NCBI GenBank assembly: GCA_021780575.1 | Contig: JAJXYL010000030.1 | Span: 1 to 6,686, forward strand | From: a bacterium | Lineage (GTDB): Bacteria > Patescibacteriota > Minisyncoccia > Phycocordibacterales > Phycocordibacteraceae | Direction of reading: 5' to 3' | Length of the DNA: 6,686 bases | Part shown: piece after piece, positions 1 to 4,476 of the stretch | Position numbering within the stretch: position 1 is the stretch's first letter | How the letters are laid out: every line of letters begins with the position of its first letter | Notes under the pieces: model-generated | Databases searched by the model: none | What the model was told of the DNA's origin: nothing | What the model saw: the letters and a program-made list of their open reading frames with translations, nothing else | Position numbers and translations under genes: made by a program

Positions 1-401
1 TCAATAAGCAGCTCCAGGAGGGTCAGGCAGGCGACAATGCCGGCATTCTTCTCCGCGGCACCAAGAAAGAGGACGTGCATCGCGGCCAAGTCCTCGCGAA
101 GGCTGGCTCGGTCACTCCGCACACTGACTTCGAGGCAGAGGTCTACATCCTCTCCAAGGACGAGGGCGGCCGTCACACGCCATTCTTCTCCGGTTACAAG
201 CCCCAGTTCTATATCCGCACCACGGACGTCACGGGAGAAGTGACGCTCGCCGAGGGCAAGGAAATGGTCATGCCGGGCGATACAGCCACCTTCAAAGTGA
301 AGCTCGTCGCACCGGTTGCCCTTGAGGAGAAGCAGAATTTCGCTATTCGCGAAGGTGGGAAGACTGTCGGCGCAGGCGTGGTCACGAAGATCACTGCGTA
401 A
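1..401 (+). CDS. tuf: Elongation factor Tu, C-terminal part (5' end outside window)
   Basis: EF-Tu is the GTPase that brings aminoacyl-tRNA to the ribosomal A site. Only the last 132 full codons are present (reading frame from base 3), corresponding to the end of domain 2 and all of domain 3; the GTPase domain lies upstream of the window. Recognisable family stretches are [63 protein letters not shown] and the C-terminal [18 protein letters not shown], all nearly identical to the family. Domain 3 contacts the T-stem of tRNA and EF-Ts. The gene ends in TAA at 399-401, and rpsJ begins 23 nt later with no terminator between them, so the two are probably co-transcribed, as tuf-rpsJ pairs are in many bacteria. 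Nothing is degraded; the truncation is only the window edge. Confidence 0.98.
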
Positions 402-424: not shown

Positions 425-853
425 ATGCCAACAAAAACGGCAACGAAATCAAAAGCGAAGTCGAAGGAAAAGACCGTCTCGAAGCGTGTCGCCACTCCGG
501 TTGTCAAACCGAAGAAGAAGGTCGGCGCCGTCTCTGGCGCTCCGGCGGAGCACAAGCTCCGTATCCGCGTCCGCGCCTACGAGCATAAGATTCTCGATCT
601 CTCGGTGAAGCAGATTATGGATACGGCGGCGCGCCTCGATGCCGTCGTCGTTGGTCCAGTACCGCTTCCGACCGAGATAAAGCGCTGGACGGTGAACCGT
701 TCCACCTTCGTCTACAAGGATGCGCGCGAGCAGTTCGAGATGCGCGTCCATAAGCGCCTTATCGATATTCTCAACCCCACGCCGAAGGTTATCGAGGCCC
801 TCACGAACCTCAACCTCCCGTCAGGGGTCACCATAGATGTGAAAATGGTTTAG
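425..853 (+). CDS. rpsJ: 30S ribosomal protein S10 (NusE) with long basic N-terminal extension
   Basis: S10 sits in the 30S head and, as NusE, binds NusB in transcription antitermination. The family core runs from about residue 42 ([13 protein letters not shown]) to the end, with the diagnostic [17 protein letters not shown] at 77-93 and [18 protein letters not shown] at 98-115. The protein is 142 residues against about 102 in E. coli; the excess is an N-terminal Lys/Ala/Thr/Val-rich tail of about 40 residues, likely disordered. The start at 425 is forced: no ATG, GTG or TTG codon occurs in frame between it and the conserved core. There is no Shine-Dalgarno; the 15 bases before ATG read actgcaaagaacagc. 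It lies 23 nt after tuf and is followed at once by a strong stem-loop, so it seems to be the last gene of its transcript, unlike in the usual rpsJ-rplC arrangement. Confidence 0.97.
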
Positions 854-868
854 CAAAGATGACCAAGA

Positions 869-904
869 AAGCACAAAGCCGCCCGCACGGGCGGCTTTGT
901 GCTT
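869..904 (+). terminator. Perfect 16-bp stem-loop after rpsJ, probable (bidirectional-type) terminator
   Basis: Arms aagcacaaagccgccc (869-884) and gggcggctttgtgctt (889-904) are exact reverse complements around the 4-nt loop gcac. A GC-rich core (gccgccc/gggcggc) is followed by ttt, then by further paired bases, so the short U-run lies inside the stem and there is no long free U-tract. It begins 15 nt after the rpsJ stop. Position and strength argue for a terminator of the tuf-rpsJ transcript; lack of a long U-tract leaves efficiency uncertain. Confidence 0.8.
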
Positions 905-905
905 A

Positions 906-934
906 TTGACATATATACATTTAGATGTTATATT
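906..934 (+). promoter_or_regulatory. Near-consensus sigma70-type promoter for the sugar transferase
   Basis: A perfect -35 TTGACA (906-911), a 17-bp A/T-rich spacer and TATATT (929-934, five of six matches to TATAAT). Predicted transcription start is near 941, giving a leader of about 36 nt before the ATG at 977. It starts one base after the preceding stem-loop. This is the best promoter match in the window. Confidence 0.85.
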
Positions 935-964
935 TGCGCTCGCGTCACTCTCAACCAATTGTCG

Positions 965-970
965 AGGAGG
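965..970 (+). promoter_or_regulatory. Strong Shine-Dalgarno AGGAGG of the sugar transferase
   Basis: AGGAGG lies 6 nt before ATG 977 and decides that start over the earlier in-frame GTG at 899, which is inside the terminator stem and upstream of the promoter. It is the only Shine-Dalgarno in front of a recognised gene in this window. Confidence 0.9.
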
Positions 971-976
971 AAGGTG

Positions 977-1546
977 ATGGGTAAGAAGATCTTTGATTTT
1001 CTCGGGGCGTTCGTGCTTCTGGTGCTGGCCGCACCGCTATTTCCGCTTATTGCCGTTTGGATAAGGGCGACATCGCCCGGACCGATTATCTTCAGGCAGA
1101 CACGTCTTGGGTGTCGTGGCGTGCCGTTTAAGGTGTTCAAGTTCCGAACGCTTGGAGATAAGACCGGCCACCCGATGGATATGGTTTTGCGGGGCGACCA
1201 GCGCGTTACCGCGCCGGGAAGGTTTCTGCGGAAGACGCACTTGGACGAGCTCCCGCAGCTTATCAACGTCCTTCTGGGACAGATGAGTCTAGTGGGCCCG
1301 CGCCCGTTCCCGCTCGATATATCTAAAAAATGCATTCAGGAAATACCGTCCTTCGCCCGTCGTCTCGACGTTCTTCCTGGTATGACGGGGTTGGCACAGA
1401 TTTACGGAAGGGAATGGTGGATCAATCGGGGTTTCAGATGTGTTTTTCGTCTCGACCTTTTCTATATCAACCGCCGTTGCTTCCTGCTTGATTTGTACAT
1501 TCTGTTCAGGACAGCGGGAACGGTTCTGTTGGGTAAGGGGATTTGA
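977..1546 (+). CDS. Monotopic phosphoglycosyl transferase (bacterial sugar transferase family, PglC/WbaP/EpsL-like)
   Basis: Enzymes of this family (Pfam bacterial sugar transferase) move a sugar phosphate from a nucleotide sugar to undecaprenyl phosphate at the inner face of the membrane, the first membrane step of capsule, O-antigen, exopolysaccharide or glycoprotein glycan assembly. The 189 residues match a minimal PglC-size catalytic domain. Residues about 5-30 form the hydrophobic re-entrant helix with prolines 20 and 23; SPGPIIFRQTRLG (33-45) and FKVFKFRT (51-58) follow; the catalytic Asp-Glu dyad is D90-E91 in KTHLDELPQLINVL; then MSLVGPRP (103-110) and LPGMTGLAQIYGRE (133-146). All core motifs are intact, so it should be active. 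The sugar cannot be told from sequence. It has its own promoter, Shine-Dalgarno and terminator, contains four cysteines and fewer Lys-rich stretches than its neighbours, and has no functional relation to them, which suggests insertion into the S10 operon. No partner glycosyltransferase or flippase gene is visible. Confidence 0.93.
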   Translation: MGKKIFDFLGAFVLLVLAAPLFPLIAVWIRATSPGPIIFRQTRLGCRGVPFKVFKFRTLGDKTGHPMDMVLRGDQRVTAPGRFLRKTHLDELPQLINVLLGQMSLVGPRPFPLDISKKCIQEIPSFARRLDVLPGMTGLAQIYGREWWINRGFRCVFRLDLFYINRRCFLLDLYILFRTAGTVLLGKGI

Positions 1547-1548
1547 CA

Positions 1549-1580
1549 CCGCGCGCTCTTATGAGCGCGCGGTTTTTCTT
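1549..1580 (+). terminator. Canonical intrinsic terminator after the sugar transferase
   Basis: A 10-bp GC-rich stem ccgcgcgctc (1549-1558) and gagcgcgcgg (1563-1572), loop ttat, followed by TTTTTCTT (1573-1580); a1548 can pair with t1573. It starts two bases after the TGA stop (1544-1546). This is the most classical terminator in the window and separates the transferase from rplC. Confidence 0.93.
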
Positions 1581-1607
1581 GCATCTTTAAGAAGCCTCGT
1601 GTAGAGT
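1579..1607 (+). promoter_or_regulatory. Weak candidate promoter for the rplC-rplB unit
   Basis: TTGCAT (1579-1584, three of six matches) and TAGAGT (1602-1607, four of six, with the key first T, A and last T) are separated by 17 bp. Because a terminator ends at about 1580, rplC needs either read-through or a promoter in this 107-bp gap, and this is the best candidate I can find. Predicted start is near 1614. The match alone is modest. Confidence 0.4.
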
Positions 1608-1611
1608 GTCC

Positions 1612-1687
1612 GGAACGCTACGTACTTCCCTGGAGGTACCTATGGCAGAACGCGCGATGCGTCTGTCATCGCGCGTTTTCCTTAAAA
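1612..1687 (+). promoter_or_regulatory. Structured rplC leader: Shine-Dalgarno, out-of-frame ATG, hairpin with U-rich tail
   Basis: The leader contains GGAGG (1632-1636) five bases before ATG 1642. That frame is not the rplC frame: it reads MAERAMRLSSRVF and on through the rplC start to a stop at 1813-1815. Bases 1649-1659 (aacgcgcgatg) and 1667-1677 (catcgcgcgtt) form a perfect 11-bp stem with a 7-nt loop, extendable by a G-U and an A-U pair, followed by tttcctt; this looks like a terminator and ends only a few bases before ATG 1688. The GGAGG can itself pair within 1622-1639 (gtacttc with ggaggtac, one G-U). Together these look like a leader under translational or attenuation control. The structures are read directly; the function is inferred. 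Confidence 0.55.
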
Positions 1688-2302
1688 ATGAAATTCATTC
1701 TCGCAAAGAAGGAAGGCATGACCCGAGTGTTCGGGGAGGATGGCCGCGCCCGCGCAGGAACCATCCTTACTGCCGACCCGGTGACGGTCACCCAGGTGAA
1801 GACGAAGGGGGGTAAGGACGCTTATGCGGCGATTCAGGTTGGTGCAGGCATCCGCAAGACAAAGAACATCAGCAAGGCGGTCCTCGGACACACCAAAGGG
1901 AAGGGTTATACGGACATCCGGGAATTTCGTACGGAAGACACGGCGGAAATCGGCAGCACGATTGACGCGTCAGTATTCGCCGTCGGCGATACAGTCCAGG
2001 TTTCCGGCCTTTCGAAGGGTAAGGGCTTCGCCGGTGTTGTGAAGCGCCACGGCTTCCACGGCGGCCCGCGTTCTCACGGTCAGAAGCACACCGAGCGCTC
2101 CCCGGGCTCCATCGGCGGTTCGGGCGGTCGCGCGGGCGGGCGTGTCGCTAAGGGCATGAAGATGGCTGGCCGTCTGGGTACCGATCGCGTGACGGTTACG
2201 AACCTCAAAGTGCTCGTCGTCGACCCGAAGGCAGGCAAGATTATCGTGAGTGGTGCCGTACCTGGCCGCCGCGGAACATTGCTTGAGATCGTATCCGCAT
2301 AA
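1688..2302 (+). CDS. rplC: 50S ribosomal protein L3
   Basis: L3 is an early 50S assembly protein whose central loop reaches towards the peptidyl-transferase centre. At 204 residues it has the normal family length (E. coli 209). The N-terminal MKFILAKKEGMTRVF, the signature GFAGVVKRHGFHGGPRSHG (113-131) and the C-terminal KMAGRLGTDRVTVTNLKV and SGAVPGRRG are clear. The loop after PGSIG is unusually glycine-rich (GGSGGRAGGRVAKG, about 143-156) and about two residues longer than in E. coli. The start at 1688 fits the family N-terminus exactly, yet no Shine-Dalgarno lies in reach: the preceding bases are ttttccttaaaa, directly after a stable hairpin. First gene of a four-gene unit; rplD starts 15 nt after its stop. 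Confidence 0.98.
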   Translation: MKFILAKKEGMTRVFGEDGRARAGTILTADPVTVTQVKTKGGKDAYAAIQVGAGIRKTKNISKAVLGHTKGKGYTDIREFRTEDTAEIGSTIDASVFAVGDTVQVSGLSKGKGFAGVVKRHGFHGGPRSHGQKHTERSPGSIGGSGGRAGGRVAKGMKMAGRLGTDRVTVTNLKVLVVDPKAGKIIVSGAVPGRRGTLLEIVSA

Positions 2303-4266: not shown

Positions 4267-4273
4267 TTGTAGA

Positions 4274-4323
4274 AATACCCATACACAAAACCCCGCGAAA
4301 GCGGGGTTTTGTGTATGGGTATT
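4274..4323 (+). terminator. Perfect 23-bp stem-loop with GAAA tetraloop between rplB and rpsS
   Basis: Bases 4274-4296 are the exact reverse complement of 4301-4323, around a GAAA loop (4297-4300), a stable GNRA tetraloop closed by C-G. The apical half is GC-rich (ccccgc/gcgggg), flanked by aaaa on the left and tttt on the right, then a further 12-13 paired bases. The symmetric A-tract and U-tract would let it act on either strand. It begins 7 nt after the rplB stop. Likely end of the rplC-rplB transcript, or an RNase-processing or 3'-stabilising structure. Confidence 0.83.
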
Positions 4324-4356
4324 GTGCGGAAAATCACCATAAATCTAATTATGCAT

Positions 4357-4384
4357 TTGTCAAAGTTCTGGAATCGCCTAGGAT
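4357..4384 (+). promoter_or_regulatory. Second, weaker candidate promoter upstream of rpsS
   Basis: TTGTCA (4357-4362, five of six matches) and TAGGAT (4379-4384, four of six) with a 16-bp spacer. It lies upstream of the better promoter at 4411 and could form a tandem pair. The evidence is only consensus similarity in an A/T-rich gap. Confidence 0.3.
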
Positions 4385-4410
4385 TTATGAGGGTGTTTTG
4401 GTATGGAAGT

Positions 4411-4439
4411 TTGACTTCACAGATGCCTTCCTGTATCTT
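4411..4439 (+). promoter_or_regulatory. Probable promoter for the rpsS unit
   Basis: TTGACT (4411-4416, five of six matches), 17-bp spacer, TATCTT (4434-4439, four of six). The predicted transcription start near 4446 would put the short hairpin at 4448-4460 at the very 5' end of the mRNA and give a leader of about 31 nt. A promoter is expected here because a strong stem-loop separates rplB from rpsS. Confidence 0.65.
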
Positions 4440-4447
4440 TGAGCTAT

Positions 4448-4476
4448 CCCGCAGTGCGGGCTTTTCATTACTTTTT
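4448..4476 (+). promoter_or_regulatory. rpsS leader: 5-bp hairpin and U-runs directly before the start codon
   Basis: cccgc (4448-4452) and gcggg (4456-4460) pair around a 3-nt loop, followed by cttttc and then ttttt just before ATG 4477. No Shine-Dalgarno is present. If transcription starts near 4446 the hairpin is too close to the 5' end to act as a terminator; it more likely protects the mRNA end, with the U-rich stretch as a possible landing site for ribosomal protein S1. That role is inferred. Confidence 0.45.

Follow-up and report, generated by a model that had tools for sequence, protein, structure and literature searches.

The S10 cluster of ribosomal protein genes serves as a textbook example of frozen gene order, and hotspots of gene exchange between conserved core genes are a known kind of site. 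Here we examined a contig in which a gene for a predicted phosphoglycosyl transferase (PGT) is located inside this cluster, between rpsJ and rplC. The window, i.e. the whole stretch of DNA analysed, is the complete contig C17 (6686 bases) of G000, as we label its genome, a metagenome-assembled genome (MAG) of 48 contigs, 311 kb and 80% completeness from a very small bacterium of the Parcubacteria group. As reported in the available part of PMC10931766, the S10 operon of Escherichia coli is controlled by its product L4 (uL4) through attenuation and at translation. For small PGTs of the PglC type, the available part of PMC6133551 describes a motif with a highly conserved Pro and with Ser in 49%. 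We propose that the predicted transferase gene is, quite probably, one occupant of a variable slot for genes, located at a seam in the S10 cluster. The rpsJ-rplC gap itself likely serves as a site where accessory genes can dock and are tolerated.

The relatives sample comprised 98 genomes of the window's family, 85 of them from its genus (the window's own genome counted). We located rplC in 90 and rpsJ in 87 of these and searched for the PGT as well. The junction was found on a single contig in 83 genomes (73 of the genus and 10 of two other genera) and not in the other 15. A first-pass annotation, made from the sequence alone, had taken tight rpsJ-rplC adjacency for granted. This fails for the genus: none of the 73 gaps measures 60 bp or less. 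Gap sizes range from 144 to 4002 bp with a median of 836 bp; 19 are at most 330 bp long, 54 exceed 400 bp and 27 exceed 1000 bp. Three of the 10 junctions from the two other genera are tight (4-11 bp). For other families of the order (241 genomes, pairs on separate contigs dropped), the matches listed include 95 same-contig pairs in which the two matches lie a median of 188 bp apart, with 19 pairs at most 60 bp and 25 more than 500 bp apart.

The PGT gene lies inside this gap in four genomes, G000, G026, G067 and G090, at the same site, with the same layout and with similar ribosome sites. It is absent from 69 of the 73 genus junctions, 50 of which are filled. The first-pass annotation had offered, as one option, a lineage trait linking glycan priming to ribosome supply. 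Such purposeful co-regulation of the PGT with ribosomes, tying glycan priming to growth, would suit a gene carried on the same strand and between two ribosomal units. Hairpins on both sides, a promoter-like site of its own, the missing PGT in those 69 junctions and the unrelated genes in others nevertheless make it very improbable. Slot occupancy explains the PGT better than a functional tie to ribosomes. In G090 (L016, 785-1396) the PGT frame extends beyond the stop of the others into the hairpin, giving 204 aa. In G093 (L036/L099/L100), PGT-like pieces were observed at two contig ends, the first next to rpsJ and the second ahead of the rplC leader; they are probably the same site broken by assembly, and G093 is perhaps a fifth carrier. 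The window is an entire contig of a fragmented and incomplete MAG, a situation in which an assembly or binning chimera has to be considered. We find this scarcely credible, since the 90% protein cluster of the PGT is one sequence standing on 8 contigs, the longest of 154 kb, relatives carry a PGT at the same place, and P0003, on another contig, opens with a translated upstream stretch similar to that of the window. The presence of the PGT at this site is very probably real, and it is not unique to the window's genome.

As a control, ten junctions from tuf-rpsJ to rplP-rpmC were measured in 40 genus genomes chosen for long contigs. In this set rpsJ-rplC exceeds 300 bp in 33 of 40 genomes (median 1031 bp) and rplB-rpsS in 32 of 38 (median 1251 bp; G003 and G050 have no rpsS in the stretch). 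None of the remaining eight junctions, each scored in 36-40 genomes, exceeds 300 bp, the maximum being 194 bp. In both expandable junctions one end commonly carries a hairpin, and the opposite end a promoter-like element that is conserved. The second slot is empty in the window, and the short hairpin before rpsS (TATCCCGC..GCGGGCTTTT) recurs in relatives.

Cargo open reading frames (ORFs) were sought only in gaps of at least 330 bp. We scanned 50 of them, from 39 genomes, against Pfam: 16 scored above the cut-off, 4 only below it and 30 were unmatched. The scanned set lacks 16 of the 54 filled genus sites, including those of G067 and G090, for which the PGT comes from the PGT search and from clustering. 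Families above cut-off in the genus, with the PGT of the window itself included, are diverse: Bac_transf, HicA, HicB, MOSC, adh_short, fn3, Cupin_2, NYN, OMPdecase with Pribosyltran, CarboxypepD_reg, bPH_2, PG_binding_1 and Lnb_N. The cargo of G007, from another genus, matched LysE. When all ORFs of at least 60 aa were clustered by blastp, the largest cluster at the rpsJ-rplC site was the PGT itself (4 genomes). Other clusters with ORFs from this site have two to four members, the four including one member from rplB-rpsS. Two proteins occur at both slots: a short basic protein (rpsJ-rplC in G035, G046 and G096; rplB-rpsS in G041) and a bPH_2 protein (rpsJ-rplC in G034; rplB-rpsS in G029). A metabolic pair was seen as cargo in G040 (L049:928-2423), where genes for an OMP decarboxylase and a phosphoribosyltransferase adjoin. 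Ten orphan ORFs were also searched with PADLOC for a defence island; the one weak CARF-like match was too weak to claim.

Promoter and terminator calls are sequence-based throughout, and coordinates are collected in Table 1. The first-pass annotation had described an intact transferase gene between rpsJ and rplC, on the same strand as the operon and equipped with a promoter, a ribosome site and a terminator. All of these were recovered: a full PF02397 match, a promoter-like site with 11 of 12 consensus positions, AGGAGG and a terminator-like hairpin. Its broader idea is likewise supported: an accessory gene that brings its own signals is tolerated at a conserved site. The limits of the proposed unit (854..1687) had to be redrawn; the gene does lie within them, but is itself confined to 977-1546, and 1579-1687 holds the rplC promoter-like site and leader, neither of which that annotation had recognised. 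The 16-bp stem-loop counted as part of the unit is present as described. It does not belong to the PGT: because empty-site relatives have one too, we assign it to the rpsJ side. By eye, similar -35/-10 or extended -10 elements precede the PGT in the relatives: G026 and G067 show TTGACA or TTGACG together with TGGTATA, and G090 shows TGGTATA.

Across the genus, 64 of 73 junctions have a terminator-like hairpin no more than 170 nt past the rpsJ stop, where shuffled sequences would give 0.6 (under a looser rule). A second terminator-like hairpin stands ahead of the rplC promoter in 23 of 48 filled junctions, the 48 being those with a recognised rplC promoter (0.5 expected). All that empty sites contain is the hairpin plus the promoter-like site and leader of rplC. 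A terminator-like hairpin follows rpsJ, and rplC has a promoter-like site and a leader, which makes a split of the S10 cluster at this junction probable. The cluster would form two transcription units here, with cargo placed between terminator and promoter, and the slot may be tolerated because transcription seems to finish one unit at this point and to start another. Cargo so placed would escape transcription from the ribosomal promoter and would not obstruct rplC. Between separately transcribed units, genes carrying their own signals could be neutral for ribosome synthesis and hence be gained, swapped and lost. Our simplest guess is that exchange would proceed by homologous recombination in the conserved ribosomal flanks. 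Directly after rpsJ, at the start of the gap, CCTGAGCGAAGTCGAAGGCT was noted in G031 (L008), G025 (L023) and G043 (L050); it is possibly a dispersed repeat.

Several observations weigh against this interpretation. The promoter-like site ahead of the PGT gene and the hairpin behind it are the best of their kind in the window, but the window-wide totals are not above chance: 5 promoter-like sites (at least 9/12) against 3.0 ± 1.6 expected and 7 terminator-like hairpins against 7.9 ± 3.5. The stem-loop after rpsJ was not listed by the window terminator scan, because its T-rich part sits in the 3′ arm instead of forming a T run behind the hairpin. No hairpin follows rpsJ in 9 of the 73 genus junctions, and 25 of the 48 filled junctions lack the second one. 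At rplB-rpsS the cargo is mostly one opposite-strand gene, present in 23 of 38 genus relatives (e.g. L131:7761-8657 and L132:6200-6973, both on the minus strand) and matching DUF3298 in three scanned members. This site looks more like one with a kept neighbour than a swap site, and the single dominant gene therefore weakens the idea that both sites work alike. The 30 scanned ORFs (of 50) without a Pfam match may include some that are not genes. No recombinase was seen, integrase and transposase families being absent from the 50 scanned ORFs, and only one of 80 junctions has the rpsJ 3′ end duplicated (reversed-query control, 0). Finally, PGT and L3 identities rank alike and the trees show no clear conflict, which fits vertical descent with losses.

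This last point concerns the history of the gene. In a genome tree built from rpsJ and rplC (78 rows; 5 of the 83 junctions were dropped for short L3), the PGT carriers fall at separate places. The non-carrier G057 is sister of the carrier G026 with support 93, and the non-carrier G064 stands beside the carriers G067 and G090 with support of only 56. The PGT tree comprised 25 rows and excluded P0034 and the G093 piece. It separates the long forms from a set of gap genes and short relatives (99/92) and places the four gap genes in three groups with no fixed branching order; a conflict between this tree and the genome tree was not upheld. PGT and L3 identities are 80.0% and 90.2% for G067-G090, and 60-65% and 79-85% for the other pairs.

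These data are compatible with the PGT being an old resident, vertically inherited and lost in most of the genus, with gap variation reflecting decay or replacement instead of active exchange. The shared site, layout and similar ribosome sites in four genomes, the parallel ranking of identities, the absence of supported tree conflict and a native-like codon use all agree with it. Compared with 101 ORFs of at least 150 aa (145 kb of the MAG), the gene stands at the 21st percentile for GC (0.538), the 39th for GC3 (0.624) and the 14th for codon score; it is thus not foreign-looking, and these values speak against a recent alien gene. Nor is a clearly recent insertion, an option of the first-pass annotation, supported, with codon use in the genome's range and three relatives sharing the PGT at the same site in the same layout. 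The non-carriers placed beside carriers and the many different genes at the site count against old residence, and we hold it possible while leaning against it. Given how mixed the occupants of the site are overall, we favour gain by exchange within the genus over old presence with losses.

A further possibility is a site-specific mobile element aimed at the rpsJ 3′ end and leaving cargo behind. In G009 (L104), 57 nt from the 3′ end of rpsJ recur with 89% identity at about 2485-2541, towards the far end of the 1973-bp gap; this copy is a footprint of insertion or recombination. The singularity of the copy and the missing integrase and transposase families among the 50 scanned ORFs, together with the absence of PHROGs matches for the 10 orphan ORFs, render such an element unlikely.

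Returning to the seam, the region between the predicted rplC promoter and the rplC start codon is structured. We extracted 70 leaders by pattern, and 30 of one type were picked by eye and aligned as a seed. RNAalifold and pair counts agreed on a P0/P1 hairpin followed by a GC-rich hairpin and a T-rich run before the rplC ATG. In the window these helices correspond to P0 (1617-1620/1643-1646), P1 (1622-1628/1633-1639) and a terminator-like hairpin from about 1648 to 1679. In the seed, 92.6% of cells of the consensus structure are paired. Changes on both sides were found in 7 of 17 pairs versus 4.8 in shuffled alignments, and in 49 cells versus 16.6 ± 2.9, with at most 10 double-changed cells in slid versions of the structure. 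The P1 pair 24-64 is non-standard in 16 of the 30 seed leaders and the pair 77-109 in 7. A hairpin lies at most 30 nt from the rplC ATG in 64 of 68 leaders.

The resulting model, R1, matches the window at 1602-1689 (E 3.9e-22) and 72 of the 98 family genomes at 1e-3. Compared by eye with the rplC positions, all 52 matches below 1e-10 are located at rplC or at most 203 nt upstream of it, 22 of them from genomes outside the seed. Beyond about 1e-5, some of the weaker family matches fall elsewhere than at rplC, and this set was left unused. Among 247 genomes of the order, five matches at 1e-5 were obtained, all in the window's genus, under stricter filters that may lose weak ones. No known RNA family fits the leader: Rfam 15 on 840-1720 gave at best 27 bits against a gathering threshold of 55, and nothing up to E 5 over 1608-1687. 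This element is probably a ribosomal-protein leader, seen, in the genomes searched, only in the window's family. It would tune the rplC operon by attenuation, the predicted effector being probably one of the operon's own products.

Attenuation of this kind could involve an alternative pairing, possible in the window at about 1642-1653 with 1660-1669, that draws on the second hairpin's 5′ arm. The alternative helix is paired in 87.7% of cells. Of the 36 double-changed cells counted, 22 belong to P1; the helix itself has 14, and only 2 of its 11 pairs show changes on both sides. The doubly changed pairs in this count are not above shuffles (5 versus 4.3). In nascent folds (G029 and G063, of the 70 leaders, set aside for wrong leader ends), at least 60% of the terminator arm is paired in 57 of 64 leaders, with a mean of 0.70 versus 0.60 shuffled. 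The fold energy is among the lowest 5% in 25 of 64, and G000 is in neither group. A competing terminator and antiterminator in this leader is thus weakly supported.

Concerning the product of the cargo gene, residues 3-184 align with positions 1-178 of the 179-position Bac_transf profile. By this match the gene encodes an intact 189-aa member of the monotopic PGT family. Among solved structures the best matches are PglC chains, 8e37 (8.3e-30) and 8g1n (3e-29). The D90-E91 pair is aligned with the DE of these chains, an Asp-Glu pair that belongs to the active site of monotopic PGTs. K3-K4 and A19-P20 occupy the positions of the PglC Lys-Arg and Ser-Pro. The enzyme is predicted to transfer a phospho-sugar from a UDP-sugar to polyprenyl phosphate, which would start a surface glycan. 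Cut-offs of the long families were not reached (TIGR03025, 229.6 versus 295.55; TIGR03023, 213.5 versus 410.75; TIGR03022, 157.2 versus 403), and the N-terminal part of the WcaJ, WbaP and EPS_sugtrans long forms is absent. With the catalytic domain alone and these full-length cut-offs failed, the protein is a small stand-alone one.

Some PGT match was found in 88 of the 98 family genomes, nearly all of them long forms elsewhere in the genome. The window's MAG also has one, on contig C11, with 39% identity. The nearest named proteins come from 'Candidatus Parcubacteria bacterium' (78% identity) and 'Parcubacteria group bacterium Gr01-1014_49' (72%), and a PGT scan of a collection of named genomes returned only Halomonas and Mucilaginibacter loci at 41-43% identity.

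Gene order in the window, all on the plus strand, is the tuf end, rpsJ, the PGT gene, rplC, rplD, rplW, rplB, rpsS, rplV, rpsC, rplP and rpmC. We identified tuf, rpsJ and rplC by family models and named the remaining window genes from their order and translations.

Table 1. Features of the window around the two slots
Feature	Position	Strand	Basis or remark
tuf, 3′ end	3-401	+	family model
rpsJ (S10), final gene ahead of the slot	425-853	+	TIGR01049/PRK00596 match
16-bp stem-loop, likely terminator of the tuf-rpsJ unit	869-904	+	sequence; similar hairpin in empty-site relatives
Predicted PGT promoter, TTGACA-17-TATATT, directly behind the stem-loop	906-934	+	11/12 consensus matches
AGGAGG, ribosome site of the PGT gene	965-970	+	sequence; AAGGAG in three PGT-carrying relatives
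PGT gene, cargo, 189 aa	977-1546	+	PF02397, 2e-54; stop codon 1544-1546
Terminator-like hairpin of the PGT gene, 11 pairs, then TTTTTC	1548-1573	+	runs into the rplC promoter-like site
Predicted rplC promoter, TTGCAT-17-TAGAGT (1579-1584, 1602-1607)	1579-1607	+	conserved in relatives with and without cargo
Structured rplC leader	1608-1687	+	fold, covariation, model; no overlapping Rfam match
rplC (L3), opens the next unit rplC-rplD-rplW-rplB	1688-2302	+	TIGR03625, 1.1e-58
Second slot rplB-rpsS, empty in the window	4267-4476	+	stem-loop 4274-4323, promoter-like site 4411-4439, hairpin 4448-4460

Taken together, these results indicate that, of the ten junctions measured in the S10 cluster of this genus, exactly two are open while eight remain closed, and that both open ones lie where a terminator-like hairpin meets a promoter-like site. 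This suggests a testable rule, namely that gene order in essential operons is protected wherever transcription runs through, rather than because the operons are essential. In addition, the data hint at a site of accessory-gene uptake in very small genomes and yield a candidate leader RNA that could serve ribosomal control in uncultured bacteria. A more far-reaching version, which we offer tentatively and to which we give a little less than even weight, is that the genus has turned the S10 cluster into three separately controlled units. Its two seams would serve as standing docking slots, the one at rplC being guarded by an undescribed ribosomal-protein attenuator RNA confined to the family. 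In the titles and beginnings of abstracts among the literature matches listed, there is no description of this slot or of this leader.

Compared with small monotopic PGTs of the PglC type, as described in the available part of PMC6133551, the window's protein shares the full-length catalytic domain, the D-E pair and an N-terminal membrane-helix proline at the position of PglC Ser23-Pro24. It differs in having Lys-Lys and Ala-Pro in place of Lys-Arg and Ser-Pro. In addition, its gene lies in a ribosomal cluster and has no glycan gene beside it in the window.

The rplC leader resembles the S10 leader of E. coli, as far as the latter is presented in the available part of PMC10931766, in being a structured leader with a terminator-like hairpin in front of an operon with rplC, rplD, rplW and rplB. 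Here, however, it stands before rplC and not rpsJ, is about 80 nt long and has no Rfam match. With the Bacillus subtilis rplJL and L20 leaders, treated in the same part of that source, it shares a terminator and an alternative structure proposed to compete. The genes are different, and the competition is only weakly suggested by our data.

The slot itself is best compared with hotspots of gene exchange. It differs from them in lying inside the S10 cluster, at a terminator-like hairpin and promoter-like site, and in that no recombinase was seen. As in such hotspots, unrelated and varied cargo stands between the same conserved flanks, some sites are empty, and rpsJ-rplC is more expandable than the neighbouring junctions.

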